Positions 16,472 to 18,156 of a DNA stretch of 36,981 bases are shown one piece after another (the first letter of the stretch is position 1; every line of letters begins with the position of its first letter). The stretch comes from Anaerolineae bacterium. GTDB taxonomy: Bacteria; Chloroflexota; Anaerolineae; JACIWR01. The stretch spans positions 1-36,981 of the forward strand of contig JANLFX010000011.1 of assembly GCA_024653325.1 (NCBI GenBank). The letters are read 5' to 3'. The notes under the pieces are model-generated. The model was not told the DNA's origin. It ran no database searches and worked only from the letters and a program-made list of their open reading frames with translations. Position numbers and translations under genes: made by a program.

Positions 16472-17311
16472 ATGATAAAAATAGACTGCCACATCCATAC
16501 CTGCTATTCGCCCGATTCGCTTAACTCACCCCAGGCGGTTATCGCCGCCTGCTGCCGCCGTGGTTTGGACAAAATCGTCGTCGCCGATCACAACACCATT
16601 GCCGGGGCGCTGGCCTTGCGCGAACTGGCTCCCGATCTGGTCATCGTCGGCGAAGAAATCAAAACCACCAATGGTGAGCTCATTGCCCTCTTTGTCGAGG
16701 AAGAGGTTCCTGCCTGGTTGCCGCTGGAAGAGGCCATCGCGCGCCTCCGCGCGCAAGGGGCTATCATCGGCGTTTCCCACCCGCTGGAGAGCTTGCGGCG
16801 GGAGGCGATGGGCCGGGAAGCATTGATGACCATCATTGGCCGCGTGGACTTTCTGGAGGGATTCAATGCCCGCTGCATCCTGCCCGGCGATAACCGCCGC
16901 GCTCTGGCCCTGGCCCGCGAGCACGGCCTGCCGGTTACCGCTGGCAGCGATGCCCATAGCCCGATGGAGATTGGCGCGGCCTATGTGGAGATGCCACCTT
17001 TCACCAACAAAGAGGATTTTCTGTCCAGCCTGAGGCAGGCGCGCATCGGCGGGCATTTGAGTTGCCCGCTGGTGCATTTCATCTCCACGTGGGCCAAAAT
17101 GCGGGGAAAAATCCCAATGACCAAGTTCTATCTCGATGTGGCGAACACACGTCTGCAGCCATCCATGGGCAGCAGCATGAGATTGAGGGGGGACAACAAA
17201 AGTCATCCGTTCTGGCACTTCGGTCGGGGCCAATGTGGAGAAGACCGATGGGGCAGAATCCAGGAAAGACTTCATCTACAAAATGAGCATCGCCCGGAAG
17301 GAAGCTCATGA
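16472..17311 (+). CDS. PHP-domain metal-dependent phosphoesterase (3' end probably altered)
   Basis: A 279-residue PHP protein. Metal-binding residues are His7 and His9 (DCHIHT), Asp39-His40 (VADHN), Glu61/62 (GEEI), His103 (SHPLE) and Asp160/His162 (GSDAH). This resembles the short PHP proteins related to RNase AM/TrpH, which degrade nucleotides or short RNA, but the substrate is not determined. The conserved fold ends near residue 210 (VHFISTWAKM). The final 65 or so residues have no PHP character, and the last part overlaps, in another frame, the remains of a different gene (17202-17351). The original stop was probably lost. The upstream in-frame extension into the DUF362 gene is rejected. 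No strong ribosome-binding site is visible, so it may be translationally coupled. Confidence 0.85.
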   Translation: MIKIDCHIHTCYSPDSLNSPQAVIAACCRRGLDKIVVADHNTIAGALALRELAPDLVIVGEEIKTTNGELIALFVEEEVPAWLPLEEAIARLRAQGAIIGVSHPLESLRREAMGREALMTIIGRVDFLEGFNARCILPGDNRRALALAREHGLPVTAGSDAHSPMEIGAAYVEMPPFTNKEDFLSSLRQARIGGHLSCPLVHFISTWAKMRGKIPMTKFYLDVANTRLQPSMGSSMRLRGDNKSHPFWHFGRGQCGEDRWGRIQERLHLQNEHRPEGSS

Positions 17312-17351
17312 GACACGATATTGGCCGAGAGTCATTCAGGCCAGCCTTCTT
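17202..17351 (+). pseudogene. Remnant of a four-helix-bundle protein gene (23S rRNA intervening-sequence type)
   Basis: In the frame one base different from the PHP gene, about 50 codons read IRSGTSVGAN, then DFIYKMSIARKEAHETRYW. This is the conserved middle and C-terminal part of the four-helix-bundle family named after proteins encoded in 23S rRNA intervening sequences. An in-frame TGA at 17184-17186 lies upstream and the N-terminal helix (expected to end in a LSKQLLRSGTS-like run) is absent. After RVIQASLL the reading becomes unrelated repeat sequence. It is therefore a truncated fossil, joined to the 3' end of the PHP gene. Family recognition is from memory of the motif, without a search. 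Confidence 0.7.
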
Positions 17352-17400
17352 CACGATCTTTGCACTTCTATAGTCTTGAGCTATCCCCGAGCAGTTTTTC

Positions 17401-17467
17401 ACTGCCGAGACGCAGAGGACGCTGAGGATTTTCTACAATCTCTGCGCCCCCGGCGTCTCTGCGGTGT
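17401..17467. repeat. Word-type inverted repeat (gacgcagagg / ctctgcg)
   Basis: The words ccgagacgcagagg and gacgctgagg on the left face ctctgcgcc and ggcgtctctgcgg on the right, giving an imperfect inverted repeat of about 67 bases. It lies in the 200-base non-coding gap between the gene remnant and the convergent membrane protein gene. Confidence 0.6.
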
Positions 17468-17515
17468 GTATGTTCTGATCAACAGAGGTGAAGTGAAAGA
17501 TAGTGGCCGAGCGAA

Positions 17516-17548
17516 AGAGCCCCGTTTTCTTGAAGAAAACGAGGCTCT
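17516..17548 (-). terminator. Rho-independent-like terminator of the 17552-18100 gene
   Basis: A 15-bp stem with one mismatch (agagcc / ggctct at the base, gttttct / agaaaac near the tip), three-base loop. It starts three bases after the minus-strand stop codon. On the minus strand it is followed by a short T run (TTT). Confidence 0.65.
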
Positions 17549-17551
17549 GAT

Positions 17552-18100
17552 TTACGGTAACTTCTGGATCAGCTCGTCGTAGGGGGCTATCATTTTCTGA
17601 AAGTGGACTACTACCTTATTCAGCTCGGTTTCCCGCAGCGGAATCTCCACCGGTACGTCCATTACCACCGGCACGGTCTGCTCGACCGGCACTTCCATCG
17701 TGAGGTGCACAGGAAGCCGCATCCCCTTGGGCAGGTTGAGGGACACGGTGGCGTTGAGCTGTCCGCCTCCTCCCGGAAAGCTGATGCTCGTGTATGCAGT
17801 CAGCGGGACGGATTCATTAAGCGTCACCACCGTGTCTCGCTCGATGGGCAGGACAAACGCGATGGGGATGCTGTCTTCGATATGAATGGTGCGGGTGATG
17901 GTCGCGCTGCCCAGCAGATCAATCCCGGTGTTCAGGTCATTGACCAGTTTCACGGCCACGTCATTTTTGAGGGCCGGTGCGAAGCGGATCAGGGTGATGG
18001 CCAAGGCCAAAACCACGATGACCAACACCAGGTTGACCACGAACGAGAAGAACAGGGCGAACTTCTCTAAAGCTAGCCAGAATGCTTCTACGCGTTTCAT
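17552..18100 (-). CDS. Single-pass membrane protein of unknown function
   Basis: A 182-residue protein not recognised. A transmembrane helix spans about residues 14-38 (FALFFSFVVNLVLVIVVLALAITL). The remaining 140 residues are predicted to be outside the membrane and rich in beta strands with repeated Val-Pro motifs (VPVEQTVPVVMDVPVEIPL). The second of two in-frame ATGs (18100) is preferred because GGGGGGA is about eight bases upstream; the first, at 18106, is too close. It ends at a good terminator. No neighbour indicates a function. Confidence 0.78.
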   Translation of the reverse strand: MKRVEAFWLALEKFALFFSFVVNLVLVIVVLALAITLIRFAPALKNDVAVKLVNDLNTGIDLLGSATITRTIHIEDSIPIAFVLPIERDTVVTLNESVPLTAYTSISFPGGGGQLNATVSLNLPKGMRLPVHLTMEVPVEQTVPVVMDVPVEIPLRETELNKVVVHFQKMIAPYDELIQKLP

Positions 18101-18156
18101 GGGCATTTCCCCCCTTTTTAGTGCTACAAACCGTATTAGCGTTGGGGCTGACTACA

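Follow-up and report, generated by a model that had tools for sequence, protein, structure and literature searches.

The locus and its features

We analyzed a window of 36,981 nucleotides from an Anaerolineae bacterium, in which a gene for a PHP-family metallohydrolase is now read from 16472 to 17311 on the plus strand (279 amino acids plus TGA). The frame (16472-17308) matches PF02811 (E 2.1e-7) and PF13263 (E 1.4e-16), and the match of the protein to the NCBIfam CehA/McbA model falls under that model's cut-off. Residues 1-211 (16472-17104) form a conserved body: 190 of the 211 residues are identical in a sister genome (G001), with dN of 0.056 and dS of 0.68, giving a dN/dS of about 0.08 that averages over the periods before and after the break described below. 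The body of the enzyme looks intact and functional.

The remainder of the PHP protein has a different origin. The DNA match to the sister genome stops at 17103, and the PHP protein of that genome ends seven residues past the point at which homology ends. We found PHP homologues at E ≤ 1e-10 in 45 of 60 relatives; most of their matches extend no farther than residue 210-218, and stop codons interrupt the few that reach 226-257. Since the homologue matches and the sister-genome DNA match both end at about residue 211, residues 212-279 (17105-17308, plus strand) are foreign; this tail occurs in no homologue among these 60 relatives. A preliminary description of this DNA had placed the loss of PHP character at about residue 210, which agrees with our comparison, and had proposed a nonsense tail of 65 residues; the tail is indeed foreign, and its length is about 68. 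That description had named homologues bearing the same tail as evidence against itself, and none came to light.

The last part of the tail is read, in another frame, from the relic of an S23/IVP four-helix-bundle gene (17193-17351, plus strand). The relic comprises 53 stop-free codons from the middle of the protein, translated as TTKVIRSGTSVGANVEKTDGAESRKDFIYKMSIARKEAHETRYWPRVIQASLL, and 17193-17308 overlaps approximately the last 39 PHP codons. Two TGA stops (17178-17180 and 17184-17186) lie just upstream in the relic's frame, which, translated from 17001, gives stop-D-stop-GGTTKVIRSGTSVGANVEKTDGAESRKDFIYKMSIARKEAHETRYWPRVIQASLL. The family assignment is secure: 17193-17387 matches PF05635 with 42.1 bits (E 1.1e-10; curated cut-off 33.8), and 17193-17351 reaches 48.9 bits with TIGR02436, "four helix bundle protein" (E 6.3e-13; cut-off 24), so that both curated cut-offs are passed. 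PDB entry 2rld also matches (E 2.4e-12), and the closest intact relatives in the Chloroflexota are 57-72% identical over 46-51 residues. Moreover, a profile of intact relatives matches with 85.6 bits over 52 ungapped residues (positions 38-89 of 122). This profile was made from 28 relatives of 90-180 amino acids, from the 29 that were translated out of 80, with one of 83 amino acids (L172) excluded. Chance is excluded as the source of the match. These results bear out the preliminary description in its reading of a four-helix-bundle fossil in a frame other than that of PHP, which the PHP frame reads through; the family search that it had proposed as a test gave significant matches.

Unlike intact S23 proteins, the relic consists of the middle only. 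It has no start, no N-terminal helix and no C-terminal part, and a search of the three forward frames of 17061-17560, run at maximum sensitivity, revealed no further pieces of the family. As the relic matches only profile positions 38-89 (52 of 122) and no other pieces are present, both ends are missing, not the N-terminus alone. The preliminary description was right that the N-terminal helix is gone and that a stop lies just upstream (the stops at 17178 and 17184; the profile match begins at position 38); it missed the loss of the C-terminal third, the repeat element that follows and the reason why PHP lacks its stop. A frame without start, N-terminus or C-terminus is dead.

In a six-frame scan of its own genome (G000), PF05635 is matched at seven places, six of them above the cut-off; the relic is among the seven (17178-17339, with two TGA inside). 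The other six places read differently, and a DNA search of the genome yielded no second copy that could have served as donor. The stretch between the PHP body and the relic (17105-17192, plus strand), which contains the two TGA stops in the relic's frame, has no family match and no notable second copy in the genome, and 17117-17192 shows no 7-bp periodicity (autocorrelation at lag 7 of 0.19).

The right edge of the relic, 17351, is the last base before a MITE-like element (17352-17505, plus strand) of 154 bp with imperfect terminal inverted repeats and an inner palindrome (17400-17466) of two 27-nt arms that are 78% complementary. Four full-length copies are present in the genome, including that of the window; those on contigs C9, C160 and C176 are 85-91% identical to it. 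C41 and C173 carry lone left ends, and C128 carries a right part, in which 35 bases match within a composite repeat. The C160 copy is a true insert: it sits upstream of a gene in an intergenic gap that is about 150 bp shorter in the sister genome, and it stands between 5-bp ATCTC repeats; inspection of the three remaining full copies by eye revealed no such duplication. The sister genome has no full-length copies and has matches of the core type only. Across the phylum, 7 of 400 genomes, the own genome included, have a match at E ≤ 1e-10 (two candidates scored per genome); outside the own genome, the matches listed are confined to the core (about positions 42-124 of 153), and none is a full-length copy.

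Like bacterial MITEs, the element is short and non-coding, has terminal inverted repeats and several dispersed copies in one genome, and has a 5-bp flanking repeat at one copy. It differs in that a search of its own genome yielded no transposase sharing its ends, and we leave its family unassigned. A pattern search of that genome for an autonomous partner with these ends gave short copies and the two lone left ends, which are near contig ends. The element might be a unit of the PF13366 (GxxExxY) type that was emptied; sequence around 5 of 30 PF13366 loci matches its core, over 28-40 bases only. As a separate observation, copies of a GACGCAGAG-type palindrome lie near five PDDEXK_3 (GxxExxY, PF13366) genes (L242, L244, L245, L254, L265), and a palindrome of this type is also the core of the window's element. 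At one of the five (L265, C111:85445-85883 in the own genome), such palindromes lie to either side of the gene and are oppositely oriented.

Beyond the element, a terminator-like inverted repeat (17516-17548; 16 bp, 94% complementary) lies between convergent genes and is followed on the minus strand by an ORF of 184 amino acids with a hydrophobic N-terminus (17552-18106), which has no Pfam match and, at the search used, no DNA match in the sister genome. The contig of the sister genome on which the ancestral neighbor of this ORF was sought begins inside the next gene cluster.

A conserved overlapping gene pair and its break

The sister genome reveals what stood beside the PHP gene. There the 3' end of PHP reads ATGGACATAATT; PHP terminates at the TAA, the next gene begins at the ATG, and the two genes overlap such that the TAA falls inside ATG GAC ATA ATT, the start of a PrsW-family protease gene (PF13367, E 3.6e-36). 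At 19 of 29 relative loci, PrsW follows PHP on the same strand, directly adjacent at 17 of them and 1.1-1.3 kb away at L061 and L065; the other 10 have no PrsW downstream, some owing to the end of the contig. Thus, the pair is conserved in the class.

In the window, PrsW does not follow PHP. The PrsW gene of the same genome, 87% identical to that of the sister genome, is found on C128. There the right part of the MITE-like element stops about 10 bases short of the ATG of PrsW, oriented as it should be had a single copy once separated PHP and PrsW. The element family therefore adjoins both halves of the split pair. The pair was therefore broken at the overlap in the lineage of the window, and the PHP gene thereby lost its stop, which had lain inside the PrsW start.

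We think it very likely that the locus is the scar of a rearrangement in which the PHP-PrsW pair was broken and PHP was fused to DNA of an S23 relic, with recombination between copies of the element as the probable cause. We infer the following order of events. In the ancestor, PHP and PrsW overlapped, the stop of the former lying inside the start of the latter. The pair then split at the overlap, and PHP, its stop gone, was joined to foreign DNA: about 90 bp of unassigned sequence, followed by the middle of an S23/IVP gene that lacks its N-terminal part and whose C-terminal part is interrupted by the 154-bp element. PHP translation now runs on for 68 residues to a chance TGA, and PrsW survives elsewhere beside the right-hand part of the same element family. 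Since that part lies beside PrsW in the expected orientation, homologous recombination between copies of the element probably separated the two genes. The preliminary description had suggested that a deletion or recombination joined two genes, and the overlap in the sister genome, the conservation of the pair and the position of the genome's own PrsW beside a part of the element all support it. A simple intermediate of the form PHP, S23 gene, element, PrsW would require another deletion, because an S23 C-terminus is absent beside the element on C128 and the gap between repeat and PrsW start is too small to hold one.

Another explanation concerns only the step involving the element and leaves both the relic and the broken pair as they are. 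An illegitimate deletion or translocation might have made the break without the element, which then inserted later into a dead S23 relic, its part on C128 being coincidental. The junction of PHP and relic lies about 250 bp upstream of the element in unique sequence, the core of the element is found elsewhere in the phylum, and the C128 copy is partial in a repeat-rich genome, all of which suit this alternative. However, the element has few sites in the genome, and yet two of them adjoin the two halves of one split pair with the expected orientation and end. We consider the alternative plausible, though somewhat less likely than not.

The genome is in 211 contigs, and an assembly error could therefore lie behind the join on the right side of the element, in which case everything to the right of 17505 would be wrongly joined and the real downstream neighbor of the relic would lie elsewhere. 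A 154-bp repeat with four full copies could give rise to such a chimera, and the right flank indeed has no S23 C-terminus. Nevertheless, the other copies differ by 9-15%, enough for reads to separate them, and neither the PHP tail nor the relic depends on the right flank; the join of PHP and relic, in unique sequence, is less open to this objection. Thus, we regard a chimeric contig as unlikely. That the frame is alive, either as a short four-helix fragment of 115 amino acids that begins with the GTG at 17235 or as a functionally novel fusion tail of PHP, is very improbable: no stop interrupts the frame between 17187 and 17579, but the 52 profile positions left of 122 are too few for a four-helix bundle, the frame runs on through the element, and the tail is not found in relatives.

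Repeat arms around intact S23 genes

S23-family genes are common and their function is unknown. Intact genes of the family (L099-L178, L211-L238, L001 and L069-L072) often have imperfect arrays of units of about 7 bp within about 200 bp; the units are reverse-complementary across the gene, and their sequence varies by locus.

We measured this arrangement at 80 S23 loci from named genomes; all were collected through similarity to a single query and do not count as independent samples. Up to 200 bp from the gene, 155 flanks contained 45 tandem arrays, compared to 5 in 153 flanks at 200-400 bp and 1-8 in 144-151 flanks farther out. At the 75 loci with sufficient flanks, at least five 9-mers were common to the two sides of the gene in inverted orientation in 45 cases and in direct orientation in 7; the control 1 kb farther out gave none of 67 in either orientation. 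A second set of PF05635 loci from relatives (30, with two dropped for short flanks) behaved similarly, with inverted sharing at 19/28 and direct sharing at 1/28, compared to 1/26 and 2/26 in the outer control and 0/25 for PHP genes (27, two dropped). The flanks of this set also displayed a period of 7 (0.331, compared to 0.273 outside). When scored by ungapped alignment (score of at least 16), 22 of the 28 loci had inverted and 4 had direct matches (PHP, 0/25). At comparison loci of PF13366 (30, with three dropped for short flanks), the sharing was mixed, being inverted at 11 and direct at 11 of 27. At L110, chosen for its clearest arms and thus an example rather than a sample, folding predicts a long terminal stem, formed by the arms, that encloses the ORF (z of -4.4). 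The arm pattern around intact S23 genes is well supported, and we found no description of heptamer arms around genes of this family in the literature that we searched.

The relic itself has no such complementary arms: its best ungapped inverted score is 7.0, compared to a median of 20 at the 28 intact loci. The arm pattern therefore concerns the possible past of the relic, not its present state.

The plan of an ORF between complementary arms recalls the intervening sequence of the Coxiella 23S rRNA gene, which has a 28-bp terminal stem (PMC4990558). Intact solo S23 genes, which were found by protein match, have this plan in common with it; they differ in that their arms are arrays of units of about 7 bp. 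The relic differs further from the 23S rRNA intervening sequence, as it is without arms and has protein genes, not an rRNA gene, as neighbors; no Rfam family reached the gathering score in the window. We tentatively propose, giving the idea nearly even chances, that a hairpin unit carries the stand-alone S23/IVP genes of diverse bacterial phyla as its cargo, an "orphan" intervening sequence outside rRNA, and that the relic is a putative dead, armless copy cut by the element and the rearrangement.

In the sister genome, two near-identical S23 genes (L071 and L072, C301:93-320 and 1911-2138) are separated by about 1.8 kb, and both have GCAAATC-type arrays in their vicinity, which suggests a recent duplication. 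S23 genes with in-frame stops occur elsewhere, at C126:29638-29898 in the own genome (L002) and at C69:5724-5975 in the sister genome (L073), and decay of the family is not rare in the genus.

Meaning of the locus and of the arms

The locus combines a genuine pseudogene relic with a broken, formerly overlapping gene pair; it is ordinary in kind, and its details are well resolved. It illustrates clearly that gene order becomes fragile where genes overlap in translation: when the junction is broken, a run-on protein results. Annotators should not take the PHP tail for a domain. The arm pattern of the S23 family, if it holds, outweighs the locus itself in importance. If true, the self-complementary heptamer arms would tie solo S23 genes to the intervening sequences of 23S rRNA, and the suspected mobility of these genes would become testable.
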